64,000 nt of DNA, from contig NZ_FNCI01000001.1 in assembly GCF_900100755.1 (NCBI RefSeq), positions 124,001 through 188,000 of the forward strand. The letters run 5' to 3'. Below the pieces are notes generated by a model. That model did not search any database. It was not told the DNA's origin and saw nothing but the letters and a program-made list of their open reading frames with translations. The position numbers and the translations under genes were made by a program. Positions 46,181 through 54,409 of the stretch are shown one piece after another (positions within the stretch are counted from its first letter, which is position 1; each line of letters opens with the position of its first letter). This DNA comes from Onishia taeanensis. Lineage in GTDB: Bacteria; Pseudomonadota; Gammaproteobacteria; Pseudomonadales; Halomonadaceae.

Positions 46181-46348
46181 GCGCTTTTCTCGATAAATAA
46201 TGCGGTGAACTTGAGGGAATAATAGCGAAAATTAGCCGTTGGTGGCCAGTGATAATACGACGATTTCAAGGGGTGACGCTCTGTCGCCATATTGGCTATT
46301 CAACTCCTCATATAGGCGCATGACCGGGCCTCATTTTTTTAGGAAAGC

Positions 46349-46382
46349 GGCACTTTGTTGTGCGGTGAACCAAAATGGTGCG
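46349..46382 (+). promoter_or_regulatory. NtrC-like enhancer boxes upstream of the glucosylglycerate genes
   Basis: TGAACCAAAATGGTGCG at 46366-46382 agrees at about 14 of 17 positions with the E. coli glnA NtrC site as I recall it (TGCACCAACATGGTGCT). A weaker box, GGCACTTTGTTGTGCG, lies just upstream at 46349-46364 with one base missing. The main box centres about 140 bp before the predicted start of transcription, a normal place for an NtrC enhancer. Confidence 0.55.
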
Positions 46383-46489
46383 CGGTGTTGCCGTATTGCA
46401 AAAAGGTCGCCTCTTTGTGGTGCTCTGGACCGCTGTCGGGTCCCGCGACAACCAGCGTTGCGCCATGCGTCATGGCGAATGCATCGGTC

Positions 46490-46505
46490 TGGCACGCTGC
46501 GTGCT
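46490..46505 (+). promoter_or_regulatory. Sigma-54 (-24/-12) promoter
   Basis: TGGCACG-CTGC-GTGCT matches the consensus TGGCACG-N4-TTGCT at all but one position. The invariant GG (46491-46492) and GC (46503-46504) are exactly ten bases apart. The predicted transcription start is near 46516, giving a leader of about 37 nt before the ATG at 46553. Confidence 0.68.
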
Positions 46506-46552
46506 AGGGTTTTCCATATCGGCACGCTCATGCCAGCCAGCAGGTAACGCCC

Positions 46553-47413
46553 ATGTCACCCGTTTCGCCTTCCTTGCCTCGCCTGGTCTTCACCGATCTC
46601 GACGGCACCCTGCTAGACCACGACAACTATGGGTGGAAGCCGGCCGCCCCTTGGCTCAAACGGCTTCATCACGCAGGAGTGCTGGTGATTCCGGTGACCA
46701 GCAAGACGCGTGCCGAGCTAATGCCGCTGCGTCGCGAGCTGGGCCTGCAAGATATTCCTTTCATTGCCGAAAACGGAGCGGTAATTGGGCTTCCACCCGC
46801 CTGGCAGCATGCTCGCCTGGATCGTAATCCGAACTTTGTCGACGGTCTGGCAATCAAGACGCCGGGAATCGATATCGGTTTTCTTCGCACTCGGCTTGGC
46901 GTGATGCGCGAGCGCCTTGGCGTTCGCTTTCGTGGCATGGGGGAGCTCGGCATAGACGAAATCATGTCGCTGACCGGCCTGCCGGAGCCACAGGCCCGTC
47001 TGGCCCGGGTGCGGGAAGGCTGCGAGCCGCTGATTTGGGATGACTCCGAGGCGGCGCTAGTGGACTTTCGTCAGGCGCTGGAGGCGGACGGGCTATGCCT
47101 GCTGCGCGGCGGGCGTTTCTGGCATGCCATGGGCCAGCTCGACAAGGGCGACGGCGTTCGCTGGCTGGTCGAGCGCTATCAGGCGCTGCGGGGCCATCGC
47201 CCCCTGACCCTGGGGCTTGGCGACGGGCCCAACGACGTACCGCTGCTCGAGGCGGTGGATCGCGCCGTGCTGATTCCTGGCCGCCATGACCACTCGGTGC
47301 GGCTTACCAATGCCCATCAATATCATGCCCGACACCCGGGACCCTCGGGCTGGGCCGAAGGGCTGGATTACTGGTGGGGAAAGGAGCTGACCGCGCCGGC
47401 CAAGGAATCCTAG
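46553..47413 (+). CDS. gpgP: Glucosyl/mannosyl-3-phosphoglycerate phosphatase (HAD-IIB)
   Basis: A 286-residue HAD phosphatase of the MPGP (YedP) family. The nucleophile motif FTDLDGTLLD gives Asp15 and Asp17, then VIPVTSKTRAELMPLRRELGL, FIAENGAVI and the motif IV GLGDGPNDVPLLE. The family dephosphorylates mannosyl- or glucosyl-3-phosphoglycerate to the free compatible solute. The neighbouring synthase points to the glucosyl form. It is first in the unit behind a sigma-54-type promoter, with the synthase 98 bp downstream. Which hexose it handles cannot be told from the sequence alone. Confidence 0.8.
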   Translation: MSPVSPSLPRLVFTDLDGTLLDHDNYGWKPAAPWLKRLHHAGVLVIPVTSKTRAELMPLRRELGLQDIPFIAENGAVIGLPPAWQHARLDRNPNFVDGLAIKTPGIDIGFLRTRLGVMRERLGVRFRGMGELGIDEIMSLTGLPEPQARLARVREGCEPLIWDDSEAALVDFRQALEADGLCLLRGGRFWHAMGQLDKGDGVRWLVERYQALRGHRPLTLGLGDGPNDVPLLEAVDRAVLIPGRHDHSVRLTNAHQYHARHPGPSGWAEGLDYWWGKELTAPAKES

Positions 47414-47511: not shown

Positions 47512-48732
47512 ATGAGCGACTTTTACCAGAACGGCATCATCACCAATTTTCACAACCTGATGCGGCGTCCGGTAGAGGACATCGAGGCCGATCTGGTGCG
47601 CTTTTCCCGGCGGCGTCCGATGGGCCTTATCTTGCCCTCGCTGTATTCCGAACTCGAAGGGCCGGCGCTCTCGCATATCGTCGATGAACTGGCCAAGGTG
47701 CCTTATCTCTCCGAGATCGTGATCGGGCTTGATCGGGCGGATCGAGAGCAGTTTCTGCACGCCCGGGAGTTCTTCTCCCGCCTACCTCAGCACCACCGCA
47801 TCTTGTGGAACGATGGGCCACGGCTGAAGTCGCTGGACGCCGAGCTGTCGGAGGAGGGGATCTCGCCCCAGGAGCCCGGCAAGGGGCGCAACGTCTGGTT
47901 CTGTGGTGGCTATGTCCAGGCTTCTCGCCGCACCGAGGCGATCGCCCTGCACGATTGCGACATCGTCACCTATGATCGCGGTCTGCTGGCGCGCCTGATC
48001 TATCCGGTGGCTCATCCGCAGTTCAATTATGAGTTCTGCAAGGGCTACTACTCGCGCATCGCCTCGGGCAAGCTCAATGGCCGGGTCGCGCGGCTGATGG
48101 TCACGCCACTGATCCGAGCCCTGAAGAAGATCTATGGCCCTTTGCCCTATCTCGATTACCTCGACAGCTACCGCTATCCGCTGTCCGGGGAGTTCTCGAT
48201 GCGCACCGACGTGCTCGATGGCATTCGCATTCCCAGCGACTGGGGGCTCGAAATCGGCGTGCTCTCCGAAGTGCACCGCAACTACTCCACCAAGCAGCTT
48301 TGTCAGGTCGACATCGCCGATGTCTACGACCACAAGCATCAGTCTGTCTCGGAAGAGGATGCCACGACCGGACTCAACCGCATGAGCCTGGATATCGCCA
48401 AGGCGCTATATCGCAAGCTGGCGACCCTGGGCATCGAGATTCATGCCGAGACCTTCCGTACCATCAAGGCGACCTATTATCGCATCGCCCTGGACCTGAT
48501 CGAGGCCTACGACAACGATGCCACCATGAACGGCCTGAAACTCGACCGGCACAGCGAGGAACAGGCGGTGGAACTGTTTGCCTCCAACATCATGGAGGCG
48601 GGGGCCGCCTTCCTCGACAATCCCCGTGACAAGCCATTCATCCCCAGCTGGAACCGGGTGCAGGCGGCGATTCCCGATCTGCTCGAGCGTATGCATGCGG
48701 CAGTGGAGCTCGACAATCAGGGCAAGGTCTAG
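47512..48732 (+). CDS. gpgS: Glucosyl-3-phosphoglycerate synthase (GT81-type glycosyltransferase)
   Basis: A 406-residue GT-A-fold enzyme that would join a nucleotide-activated glucose to 3-phosphoglycerate. The start MSDFYQNGIITNFHNL and the central WFCGGYVQASRRTEAIALHDCDIVTYDRG, with the metal motif Asp-Cys-Asp (148-150), match bacterial GpgS-type proteins as I remember them. YPLSGEFSMRTDVLDGIRIPSDWGLEIGVLSEV is the acceptor-side segment. GGAG lies before the ATG at 47512. The phosphatase gene just upstream provides the second step, and together they give glucosylglycerate. A mannosyl donor is the main alternative. Confidence 0.75.
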   Translation: MSDFYQNGIITNFHNLMRRPVEDIEADLVRFSRRRPMGLILPSLYSELEGPALSHIVDELAKVPYLSEIVIGLDRADREQFLHAREFFSRLPQHHRILWNDGPRLKSLDAELSEEGISPQEPGKGRNVWFCGGYVQASRRTEAIALHDCDIVTYDRGLLARLIYPVAHPQFNYEFCKGYYSRIASGKLNGRVARLMVTPLIRALKKIYGPLPYLDYLDSYRYPLSGEFSMRTDVLDGIRIPSDWGLEIGVLSEVHRNYSTKQLCQVDIADVYDHKHQSVSEEDATTGLNRMSLDIAKALYRKLATLGIEIHAETFRTIKATYYRIALDLIEAYDNDATMNGLKLDRHSEEQAVELFASNIMEAGAAFLDNPRDKPFIPSWNRVQAAIPDLLERMHAAVELDNQGKV

Positions 48733-48818
48733 CCGCGTCAAGGCGGTTGACTGACCTGGCCTGGCGGCGCCCTCCGACTATGCTGAAGGCGTGACCCCAG
48801 CAGTTGGAGGCAGGCCCG

Positions 48819-50237
48819 ATGTCGACACTGACGTTTCTGGGTGCGGTCGGTGAGGTGACCGGCTCGCGCTATCTGATCGAAGTCGATGCTGACGGCGAGG
48901 GCGTGCCGGCCCGGCGTGTGCTGCTCGAGTGCGGCATGCATCAGGGCGGCGAGGACGCCGAGCGCATCAATGCGGAACCCTTCGGCCGTCTGGCCGACAC
49001 CCTCGATGAGGTCGTGATTTCCCACGGCCACCTGGATCACTGCGGTCTCTTGCCCAAGCTGGTGCGCGAGGGCTATCGAGGCGCCATCCACTGCACGCCC
49101 GGCACCAAGGCGCTGCTCGAGATCACGCTGGCCGACTCCGCCTTCATCATGGCCAAGGATGTCGAATGGGAGAACCGCTGGCGGCATCGGGCTGGCAAGC
49201 CGCTTCTCAAGCCGCTCTATGATATCGATGACGTCGAGAGGACGCTCGATCTCTGCCAGATCCATCCTTTCGGTCAGCCGGCGACGCTCGCCGGCGGCGT
49301 CGTCCTCGTGTATCACGATGCCGGCCATATCCTCGGCTCGGCGATCGTCGAGCTGGCGATTCCCTCGGGTGGGCGCACTCGGCGCCTGGTGTTTTCCGGA
49401 GACCTCGGCAATCCTGAATCGGCGCTGATGAAGGACCCAGACATTCAGCGTGACGCCGATCTGGTGTTGTTGGAAAGCACCTATGGAGACCGCGATCACC
49501 GTCCGCTCAAGGAGACCATCGAGGAATTCGCCGAGGTGCTCGATGCGGCCTTCGAGGATGGCGGCAATGTGCTGATTCCCGCTTTCGCCATCGGTCGCAC
49601 CCAGGAAATCCTCTATCATCTCAGTATGCTCTACCATCAGGGGCGGCTGCGCCAGCAGCGCATCTTCCTGGATAGCCCGATGGCGATTCGAGTGACCGAG
49701 CTCTACGAGCGCCGTCGCTCGACCCTCGATCCCGAGGACCTGCACGCGCTCAACGTGGCGGCCCATGGCGACCCCGAACAATACTTGCCAGGGCTGCGGC
49801 TGACGCGCAGCGTCGAGGAGTCCATGGCGATCAACCGGATTCGGGGCGGGGCGGTCATCATCGCCGGTGCTGGAATGTGCAACGGTGGCCGCATCCTGCA
49901 TCACTTTCGCTACAACCTTGAACACCCCAGCACCCGAGTCGTCATCGTCGGCTTTCAGGCCGCGGGGACCAACGGCCGGCGACTGGTCGATGGCGCTTCC
50001 CACCTCAAAGTGTTGGGGCGCGAGCTGAAGGTGAAGGCGCATATCCACACCATTGGCGGCTTTTCAGCCCATGCCGGCCAGACCGAGCTGGTCGCTTGGG
50101 CCGGCGCCTTTCGCGATTGTCCACGGTTCTATCTGGTGCACGGCGAGCCGGCGGCACAGCTGGCCTTGCAGCAGGTACTTGCCACCAGCGGCATTGAAGC
50201 CGAGATTCCCGTCTACCAGCAGTGCATTGAGCTTTAG
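48819..50237 (+). CDS. Metallo-beta-lactamase/beta-CASP RNA-processing exonuclease family protein
   Basis: About 472 residues. The zinc motif SHGHLDHCG (HxHxDH), HDAGHILGSA, the beta-CASP Walker-like segment GGNVLIPAFAIGRTQEILYHL, AGAGMCNGGRILHHF and the terminal HTIGGFSAHAGQTELVAW are the hallmarks of the YsgC/CPSF-73-like group, which processes RNA. The ATG at 48819 follows GGAGG at eight bases; the frame also opens at a TTG at 48804. It lies 86 bp after gpgS, so it may be in the same transcript, but no functional link to solute synthesis is known. Confidence 0.88.
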   Translation: MSTLTFLGAVGEVTGSRYLIEVDADGEGVPARRVLLECGMHQGGEDAERINAEPFGRLADTLDEVVISHGHLDHCGLLPKLVREGYRGAIHCTPGTKALLEITLADSAFIMAKDVEWENRWRHRAGKPLLKPLYDIDDVERTLDLCQIHPFGQPATLAGGVVLVYHDAGHILGSAIVELAIPSGGRTRRLVFSGDLGNPESALMKDPDIQRDADLVLLESTYGDRDHRPLKETIEEFAEVLDAAFEDGGNVLIPAFAIGRTQEILYHLSMLYHQGRLRQQRIFLDSPMAIRVTELYERRRSTLDPEDLHALNVAAHGDPEQYLPGLRLTRSVEESMAINRIRGGAVIIAGAGMCNGGRILHHFRYNLEHPSTRVVIVGFQAAGTNGRRLVDGASHLKVLGRELKVKAHIHTIGGFSAHAGQTELVAWAGAFRDCPRFYLVHGEPAAQLALQQVLATSGIEAEIPVYQQCIEL

Positions 50238-52461: not shown

Positions 52462-54246
52462 TCAGGCAAGGCCCGGCTGCACCAGCCATAGGCTGCGGTA
52501 GGGGCGCAGTATCTCGCGCTCATCCGGTGCCCAGACGTTGCCGTCGGCGAGCACGTCGAGCCATTGGCCCTGATCCAGCTCGGGCATGCTGAGCGGCTGG
52601 CGCTGGTCGCTGATGTTATAGATCGCCAGCAGTCGGCGGCCATCCGGCAGCGGGCCGCGCTCAATGGCAAAGAGCCCCGGTGGCGTCTCGAGCACCCGCT
52701 GAGGCGCCTCGGGGTGAAAGCAGGGCTCCGCGGCGCGCTGCTTGAGACGCTCCTTGAGCGAGCCGAAGGCCTCGCGGGTCGGGGTGCTGCGGCTGTCGAT
52801 CAGCTCGTTGAGTTCGCAAAGCTGCCAGCGACGGCGGTTGATGGCGCGCAGCTGGCCCCTGCGCTCAACGCCCTCGTGGTCATTGAGCGTCGCGGTCAAC
52901 GAATGCAGGTAGATGCCGGGAATGCCTTGGAGGGCCAGCAGCAGATTCTGGCTCAGTAGGAAGCGTTCGACCTGCCAGGCGTCGGCGCCGCGCCGGGTGC
53001 CCTTCATGGCATCGAAGTAGGCGATATTGATCTCGTAGGGCGAGTCCTGGCCGTCCGGGTTGGTCTTCATGCTGACGAAGCCGCCGAAGCGATGCATCAA
53101 ATCGAGCATCACGTCGACTTCATGCTGCGGCAGCAGTCCTTCCAGGGCCCTCACGCCGATGCCGTCGTGGCTGGCCGTGAAGTTGAAATAGCTGCAGCCC
53201 GGCGGCAGGGCAGGCAGGCTCCTGGCCCATTGCGTCAGCGCCGTGGCATCGCCGCTGGTCAAGGTATGCACCAGCAGCGGTGGCAGGGTGAACTGATAGA
53301 TCAGGTGCGCCTCGTCCGGCGCCGTTCCCTCCATGGCGGCTCGCTCGAGCCCCAGATAGCTCATGTTCTCGCGGTGTGGCACATTGGTTTCGGTGATCAG
53401 GCGAGTGCCTGGGGCCACGTAATCGACGATTGCCCGCAGCAGACGCACGATGGCATGGGTCTGGGGCAGGTGAATGCAGGAGGTGCCGACTTCCTTCCAC
53501 AGGTAGGCAATGGCATCCAGGCGGATGGTGCGGGCCCCCTGCTGGAGATAGAAGAGCAGGATGCCGACGAATTCGATCAGTACATCCGGGTTGTCGAAGT
53601 TAAGATCGATCTGGTCTTCCGAGAAGGTGGCCCATAGGTGGCGGGTGCCGCGCCGGGTACTGACCGGCACCAGCAGCGGTGAGTTGCGTGGCCGCGTGAC
53701 CTGAGACAGGTCGGTCGCCGGGTCCATCTCGATGAAGTAGTTACGTCCGGGCTGGCTGTCGGCCAGATAGTCGACGAACCACAGCGAGTCTCGCGATACG
53801 TGGTTGATCACCAGGTCGACCATCAGGTCCCGGCGATCGGCCAGCGCGCGGATATCCGGCCAGTCGCCGAGTTCCGGGTTGACCTCCCGGTAGTGCACCA
53901 CCGAGAAGCCATCGTCGCTGCTCCAGGGAAAGAAGGGCAGCACATGCACGCCGCTGAAGATGTCTTCCGTTCGCTCATCCAGAAAACCCTTCAACACTTC
54001 CAGTGGCGCACGATCACCGTCGAGCAGGCTGTCGCCATAGGTGATCAGCCACTGGTCGCGCTCGCTCCACAATGGACGTGGAGTGGCGTCGATGGCACCA
54101 CGCTGGTGCGAAATCAAGGTGACCAGGCGGCGCAGGATCGCGTCGCTGCGGGGCCCGTAGACTTCCTCCAGGCGTGCGCGGGCGGCATCGATGAAGCCGG
54201 TTTCGTCCAACTGGCGTGGGGGTGTGGGAGGTAGAGATGAGCTCAT
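52462..54246 (-). CDS. GH13 sugar phosphorylase, candidate glucosylglycerate phosphorylase
   Basis: A 594-residue alpha-retaining phosphorylase of the sucrose phosphorylase group. Catalytic residues are Asp244 in IRLDAIAYLW (nucleophile), Glu286 in ITETNVPH (acid/base) and Asp361 in ASHDGIGVR, with VDLVINHVS as GH13 region I. The ATG at 54246 has GAGGA seven bases upstream; the longer frame runs through the nrdR promoter region and is not conserved. Subfamily GH13_18 includes sucrose and glucosylglycerate phosphorylases. The nearby gpgP/gpgS genes favour glucosylglycerate, which would give glucose 1-phosphate and glycerate. Sucrose remains possible, and no sucrose transporter is nearby. Confidence 0.78.
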   Translation of the reverse strand: MSSSLPPTPPRQLDETGFIDAARARLEEVYGPRSDAILRRLVTLISHQRGAIDATPRPLWSERDQWLITYGDSLLDGDRAPLEVLKGFLDERTEDIFSGVHVLPFFPWSSDDGFSVVHYREVNPELGDWPDIRALADRRDLMVDLVINHVSRDSLWFVDYLADSQPGRNYFIEMDPATDLSQVTRPRNSPLLVPVSTRRGTRHLWATFSEDQIDLNFDNPDVLIEFVGILLFYLQQGARTIRLDAIAYLWKEVGTSCIHLPQTHAIVRLLRAIVDYVAPGTRLITETNVPHRENMSYLGLERAAMEGTAPDEAHLIYQFTLPPLLVHTLTSGDATALTQWARSLPALPPGCSYFNFTASHDGIGVRALEGLLPQHEVDVMLDLMHRFGGFVSMKTNPDGQDSPYEINIAYFDAMKGTRRGADAWQVERFLLSQNLLLALQGIPGIYLHSLTATLNDHEGVERRGQLRAINRRRWQLCELNELIDSRSTPTREAFGSLKERLKQRAAEPCFHPEAPQRVLETPPGLFAIERGPLPDGRRLLAIYNISDQRQPLSMPELDQGQWLDVLADGNVWAPDEREILRPYRSLWLVQPGLA

Positions 54247-54409
54247 GGGCAATTCCTCGGAGGCCGAAATGCGCACCTGGCGGGCGGTGAGGCATATCCT
54301 TGGCTTCATGCAGGCCTCGTGCCAAACGCGAAGTGTGGCTGGGCGCCATGCGGCCAAATCGTTACAATAGAGCAAGAGTTGTTGTGTCGAACAGGCCGGA
54401 ATCCAGCCG

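Follow-up and report, generated by a model that had tools for sequence, protein, structure and literature searches.

Can the synthesis of a compatible solute be placed directly under the control of nitrogen supply? This question is raised by a short intergenic region of Onishia taeanensis, found within the 64,000-nucleotide stretch of DNA analyzed here (hereafter, the window). The region precedes gpgP and gpgS, a probable operon for the synthesis of glucosylglycerate, and resembles an NtrC-activated sigma-54 promoter driven by nitrogen shortage. From the sequence comparisons described below, we assign this reading a probability of roughly 0.88, and control of gpgP-gpgS by NtrC and sigma-54 is considered very likely.

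The likely functions of the two genes follow from profile matches and gene order (Table 1). GpgP scored 251.9 bits against the TIGR01486 model (MPGP family), exceeding the cut-off of 164.75, and matched the structure 1xvi with an E value of 3.1e-62. GpgS matched NF040724 over nearly its full length (E 2.2e-105), with a score of 352.8 bits that falls under the cut-off of 700; a weaker match to NF010496 and a weak match to a PDB GpgS structure (E 3.3e-05) were also found, and no Pfam family was matched. In the loci of relatives gathered with GpgS (the best 80 of 529), gpgP was located directly upstream of gpgS in 80 of 80. The gene that follows gpgS encodes a beta-CASP metallo-RNase-like protein; its best NCBIfam match is a type VII CRISPR Cas14 model, far under the cut-off, and the product is probably an ordinary beta-CASP nuclease.

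Table 1. Elements and genes of the glucosylglycerate locus, numbered from the first base of the window.
Feature	Position	Strand	Details
Strong NtrC box, TGAACCAAAATGGTGCG	46366-46382	+	10/12 consensus bases; matrix score 20.2
Weak second NtrC box, CGCCTCTTTGTGGTGCT	46408-46424	+	matrix score 4.7
Sigma-54 -24/-12 promoter word, TGGCACGCTGCGTGCT	46490-46505	+	GG at 46491-46492, GC at 46503-46504
Predicted transcription start	46516	+	12 bases past GC element, from promoter geometry
gpgP, probable glucosyl-3-phosphoglycerate phosphatase (mannosyl-3-phosphoglycerate phosphatase family)	46553-47413	+	TIGR01486
gpgS, probable glucosyl-3-phosphoglycerate synthase	47512-48732	+	NF040724; gpgP upstream
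Beta-CASP metallo-RNase-like gene	48804-50237	+	
GH13 sucrose-phosphorylase-like gene	52462-54246	-	probable ATG at 54246
Second sigma-54-type word, TGGCACGAGGCCTGCA	54309-54324	-	63-78 bases before ATG of the GH13 gene; without NtrC box

Sigma-54 promoters follow the consensus TGGCACG-N4-TTGCW, and NtrC recognizes the palindrome TGCACC-N5-GGTGCA. The original prediction had claimed a -24/-12 promoter with exact GG-N10-GC geometry, and the word with this spacing is indeed present, missing a single T of the consensus (GTGC for TTGC). The transcription start predicted from it lies 37 bases ahead of the gpgP ATG. Counting both strands, the 3.76-Mb genome contains 26 copies of the strict form of the word, TGGCAYR-N5-TGCW, and eight of the reversed pattern; thus, the word alone is no proof of a promoter.

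The NtrC boxes claimed upstream were likewise recovered. The stronger one, which had been placed about 108 bp before the promoter, is separated from the promoter word by 107 bases and centered about 142 bp ahead of the predicted start. Scored with the NtrC matrix built from glnA promoters (described below), it reached p=0.005, the lowest value attainable with 200 dinucleotide shuffles of this 180-base stretch. The adjacent weaker box lies 42 bp away, or about four helical turns, and reached p=0.010 against the second-best box of the shuffles. Both recur in the three loci L001-L003, where the strong box is conserved and the second box occupies the same place with the same spacing (scores of 8.7, 10.3, and 8.8). 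An inverted repeat at about 46462-46481 was considered as an extra element and dropped, as it is not kept in L003.

Conservation was assessed in the 80 relatives kept from the contig scan; together with the window these gave 81 loci, of which 80 were usable once the incomplete locus L046 had been left out. In 40 of the 80, the strict word was found in the 250 bp preceding gpgP, its first base lying 51-145 bases from the estimated gpgP start, as opposed to 0/80 on the opposite strand and 0/80 for the reversed pattern in the same stretches. The remaining 710 kb of these loci held eight further strict words on both strands. Among the nine off-site words (these eight and one from L046), four lie ahead of a phosphorylase gene and two ahead of the operon of L070 and L075, discussed below.

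The positive loci comprise the window and loci of Onishia (3/3), Halomonas (4/5), Franzmannia (1/1), Litchfieldella (2/2), Modicisalibacter (3/4), Aidingimonas (2/2), Cobetia (2/2), Chromohalobacter (5/5), Salinicola (14/14), and Vreelandella (1/1), along with both rows lacking a genus name (2/2). On a GpgS tree, nearly all of them fall in one clade of Halomonadaceae. Halomonas litopenaei L051, whose word carries one mismatch, is negative in the strict count and was treated as positive on the tree (41/80), where the promoter label requires at least two changes. Because the loci are related and the label needs only two changes, the 40 positives are not independent cases.

The other 39 of the 80 tree rows have no promoter directly before gpgP. 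They belong to Erwiniaceae (0/15), Kushneria (0/7), Larsenimonas (0/3), Halotalea (0/1), Phytohalomonas (0/1), Alcanivoracaceae (Alcanivorax/Alloalcanivorax, 0/6), Pokkaliibacter (0/1), Neptuniibacter (0/2), Modicisalibacter ilicicola, and the Thalassolituus-type loci (0/2); in the last of these, the promoter sits before a kinase gene instead of gpgP. In five of the six Alcanivoracaceae loci, gpgP starts 8-12 bases after an ORF, a spacing that would fit a move into another operon. The two Neptuniibacter loci (L064 and L073) show an unusual order: upstream of gpgP, the sigma-54-like word lies at about -129, ahead of the NtrC-like box at about -56. We judged it unlikely that the motif owes its conservation to the divergent gluconokinase gene, which was detected in no more than 10 of the 40 positive loci.

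The symmetric matrix for NtrC boxes was trained on glnA alone, using the sequence that precedes its sigma-54 word. Of 31 genomes (that of the window and the 30 best of 61 searched), 28 contributed, the other three having no strict word; the consensus of the matrix is TGCACCAAATTGGTGCA. The matrix was applied to the 180 bases before the promoter word, with 200 dinucleotide shuffles per locus. A best box with p<0.05 was found at 37 of the 40 promoter-positive loci versus 2 of the 40 promoter-negative ones, namely L051, with its one-mismatch promoter, and the Pantoea locus L068. A second box at the same level was found at 28/40 and 2/40, respectively. Distances between the two best boxes recur within groups: the boxes are 42 bp apart in the window and in L001-L003, L009, L014, and L026. 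The spacing is 23 bp for L004-L007 and 62 bp for four of the five Chromohalobacter loci, and varies in others. The expectation that these elements would be kept in relatives is thus borne out, by the strict word in 40/80 gpgP upstream regions and an NtrC box in 37 of those 40.

The genome encodes the machinery that such a promoter would require. A single match to the RpoN model TIGR02395 (467.2 bits; cut-off 277.35) was found, as was one protein above the NtrC family cut-off (TIGR01818, 743.7 bits versus 558.6), residues 391-462 of which match the structure of the NtrC DNA-binding domain, 1ntc (E 2e-18). By our reading, an ntrB-like ORF lies ahead of ntrC; the single glnA gene is on the same contig and strand as ntrC, and an ectoine synthase is also encoded. 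When all 26 strict words in the genome were ranked by NtrC score, the gpgP site came first (20.2) and glnA next (12.8), the latter having been part of the training set, such that bias, if any, would favor glnA. The third-ranked word (10.2) precedes a gene whose start we read as resembling a molybdopterin oxidoreductase, and the remaining words scored at most 6.1. Another strict word, CTGGCACAGTACGTGCTAG (own genome, contig C20, 18297-18312, minus strand), is much like that of gpgP; it lies 211 bases ahead of an ORF whose start, in our reading, resembles a phosphomannomutase/phosphoglucomutase, and is without an NtrC box.

Similar elements recur outside Halomonadaceae, often at a different gene. 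In Thalassolituus (L070) and a metagenome-assembled genome (L075), a kinase gene is followed by gpgP-gpgS; the L070 kinase matches the D-glycerate 3-kinase structures 6ckg and 7xpc, and the strict sigma-54 word and NtrC boxes (best scores of 12.8 and 17.9) precede the kinase. The same arrangement, in which a D-glycerate-3-kinase-like gene heads the operon and the elements stand before it, was found at L178-L186 as well as at these two loci (L070:2175 and L075:2165). A search of the order with the L070 GpgP covered 390 genomes, with matches in 201, from which 90 loci were taken: the 30 best matches and 60 picked by hand to spread over families. Gene starts in these loci were estimated from alignments, and the identity of kinases other than that of L070 denotes similarity to the L070 kinase.

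gpgS was detected in all 90 loci. The nine best matches, all of family f38, carry the strict word in 9/9 cases and an upstream NtrC box scoring at least 12 in 8/9. Across the whole set, 40/90 scored at least 17.3 for sigma-54 close to the gene that leads the operon (2.8% in shuffles), and 17/90 operons versus 1/1800 shuffles combined this with an NtrC score of at least 12, under thresholds that we set ourselves and applied to related genomes after part of the loci had been inspected. These 17 operons, 10 led by the kinase gene and seven by gpgP, are spread over six families (f38, 7/11; f6, 5/7; f37, 2/3; f15, 1/1; f39, 1/1; f40, 1/4); by the same rule, the other 73 of the 90 are without the pair. 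A sigma-54-like word near the first gene, as we defined it, is absent from f29 (0/6), f47 (0/3), f44 (0/4), and f8 (0/4), and present once in f20 (1/12). In f24 (6/7) and f27 (4/4), a sigma-54-like word occurs without an NtrC box scoring 12 or more. Repeated words of this type, TGGCAAGAAAYCTGCTT and TGGCACCANNTTTGCA, were seen in f24 (L218, L220, L233, and L260-L262) and f27 (L200, L209, L210, and L259), unaccompanied by strong NtrC boxes; the gpg operons of these two families may answer to another activator.

A second sigma-54-type word in the window lies before the GH13 gene on the opposite strand. GH13_18 enzymes encoded beside glycerate kinase, gpgS, or gpgP genes proved to be glucosylglycerate phosphorylases, according to one study (PMC7178133). 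As its gene is linked to gpgS/gpgP, the published clue to this specificity, the GH13 enzyme is possibly a glucosylglycerate phosphorylase and thus the sink of the pathway. A search for this gene in 101 genomes gave matches in 83, and the 30 nearest loci were analyzed. All 30 have a sigma-54-like site, 49-128 bases ahead of the start (the strict word in 23/30), and no NtrC box was found in about 350 bases before these 30 genes (best score 8.6). Among 25 readable named phosphorylase loci, 12 have a clear sigma-54-like site and 10 have none; L070 and L075 show only a weak word near the start, and L017 only a word at -307. Nine of the 10 loci without the site are also without the gpgP promoter, which the tenth, Cobetia L019, has. 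A TGTAACG motif before the phosphorylase gene was considered as an activator site and set aside, since in our reading it belongs to the promoter of a divergent gene on the reverse strand.

Taken together, these observations allow a tentative proposal, which we regard as possible and somewhat doubtful: glucosylglycerate metabolism might be a recurrent sigma-54 module across the order, in which NtrC would start synthesis at the leading gene of each operon, be it gpgP or the glycerate 3-kinase gene, and breakdown by the phosphorylase would, in the core halophile clade, use sigma-54 with a different activator, such that one sigma factor both fills and empties the pool.

Possible other activators also bear on gpgP itself. 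The promoter could be a genuine sigma-54 promoter that answers mainly to another enhancer-binding protein, for instance one responding to carbon or osmotic conditions, leaving NtrC a minor role or none. Besides NtrC itself, ten more proteins of the genome match the NtrC model strongly, ATPase domain included, and the phosphorylase site and the f24/f27 words, all without NtrC boxes, suggest that other activators may serve the pathway elsewhere. However, a matrix trained on glnA puts the gpgP region first among the 26 sigma-54 words, and NtrC boxes accompany the promoter at 37/40 positive versus 2/40 negative loci, which makes this explanation improbable.

It is far less probable still that the -24/-12 word is a palindromic operator for a repressor (TGGCACG-CTG-CGTGCTA) or part of a hairpin. 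The copy in the window does form an inverted repeat, flagged as terminator-like (nine pairs), and C and G at word positions 10 and 11, which the search pattern leaves free, are each found in 36/40 loci. However, in Cobetia (TGGCACATTCCCTGCAA) and Vreelandella (TGGCATATAAGCTGCTT) the inner arm is broken while GG-N10-GC is preserved; in glnA promoters of the family, a word almost identical to that of gpgP lacks the full palindrome (TTGGCACGCTGCCTGCAT), and NtrC boxes accompany the gpgP word. Chance likeness of motifs in a GC-rich gap, with the operon served by a housekeeping promoter, would suit the low specificity of NtrC-like boxes alone and the location of several of the 26 strict genome words inside long ORFs, yet is scarcely credible given 40/80 loci against 0/80 in both controls and a sigma-70 consensus scan of 46181-46560 that returned no forward-strand site and one on the reverse strand.

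An NtrC-activated sigma-54 promoter therefore remains the preferred reading, and the earlier interpretation of this promoter is supported at the level of sequence and comparative genomics. Counting against this reading are the weak second box of the window, the 39 tree rows with no promoter directly before gpgP, the relatedness of the loci, and the 73 of 90 operons elsewhere in the order that do not show the pair. Under nitrogen shortage, NtrB would phosphorylate NtrC, and NtrC-P would bind the strong box and, cooperatively, the weak one. DNA looping would then bring it to the RNA polymerase-sigma-54 complex waiting at the promoter word, such that transcription of gpgP-gpgS would begin near the predicted start. 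GpgP and GpgS would make glucosylglycerate, a nitrogen-free anionic solute, from 3-phosphoglycerate, and this product would stand in for glutamate and ectoine. What we infer is that NtrC binds and activates here, that transcription responds to nitrogen, that the enzymes have the activities named, and that the solute plays the physiological part described, including the putative switch away from ectoine or glutamate when nitrogen is short.

Published physiology provides a context for this proposal. One article states that glucosylglycerate is able to replace glutamate when nitrogen is scarce, and that its levels rise with high salinity and nitrogen starvation (PMC11009771); planctomycetes are described in another as producing it under limiting nitrogen (PMC5924519). 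In Chromohalobacter salexigens, from a genus in which 5/5 loci carry the promoter word, the solute is reported to be minor; it was detected when salinity was low or when ectoine synthase was mutated, and not at high salinity (PMC3308980). Its production there agrees with the proposal, and its occurrence at low instead of high salinity speaks against it. Among the matches listed from the open-access literature, outside which most subscription papers lie, no title or abstract linking NtrC or sigma-54 to glucosylglycerate was found; in passages of some texts naming both glucosylglycerate and NtrC, the solute appeared in the reference list only or the terms were unconnected. Nor did the literature searched yield a statement on how Proteobacteria sense nitrogen shortage for glucosylglycerate. 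The mechanism proposed here is classical, and the target, with its recurrence in several families, looks new. The master nitrogen regulator appears to be wired directly to glucosylglycerate synthesis in a large halophile clade and, displaced to another gene, elsewhere. This bears on the ectoine-producing bacteria of Halomonadaceae and makes a nitrogen/osmolyte switch testable.

Several known systems resemble the one proposed. The closest is the glnA promoter of the same genome and family, where a -24/-12 word is likewise preceded by NtrC boxes. Each has two boxes, 31 bp apart at the genome's own glnA and 42 bp apart at gpgP. The two differ in purpose: glnA serves nitrogen assimilation, whereas gpgP-gpgS is a compatible-solute operon, and its second box in the window is weak. 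Cyanobacteria, Erwinia chrysanthemi, and mycobacteria accumulate the same solute in response to the same kind of signal, nitrogen shortage, according to one article (PMC11009771). However, the nitrogen genes of mycobacteria are reportedly under GlnR (PMC3662644), in contrast to the signs of NtrC and sigma-54 here, and Erwiniaceae, unlike the window, have the promoter word in 0/15 of the loci examined. Finally, NtrYX of Ruegeria pomeroyi, reported to be linked to ectoine breakdown (PMC5924519), offers another case of an NtrC-family regulator tied to a compatible solute; there, NtrX is associated with the breakdown of a nitrogen-containing solute, whereas here NtrC would govern the synthesis of a nitrogen-free one.
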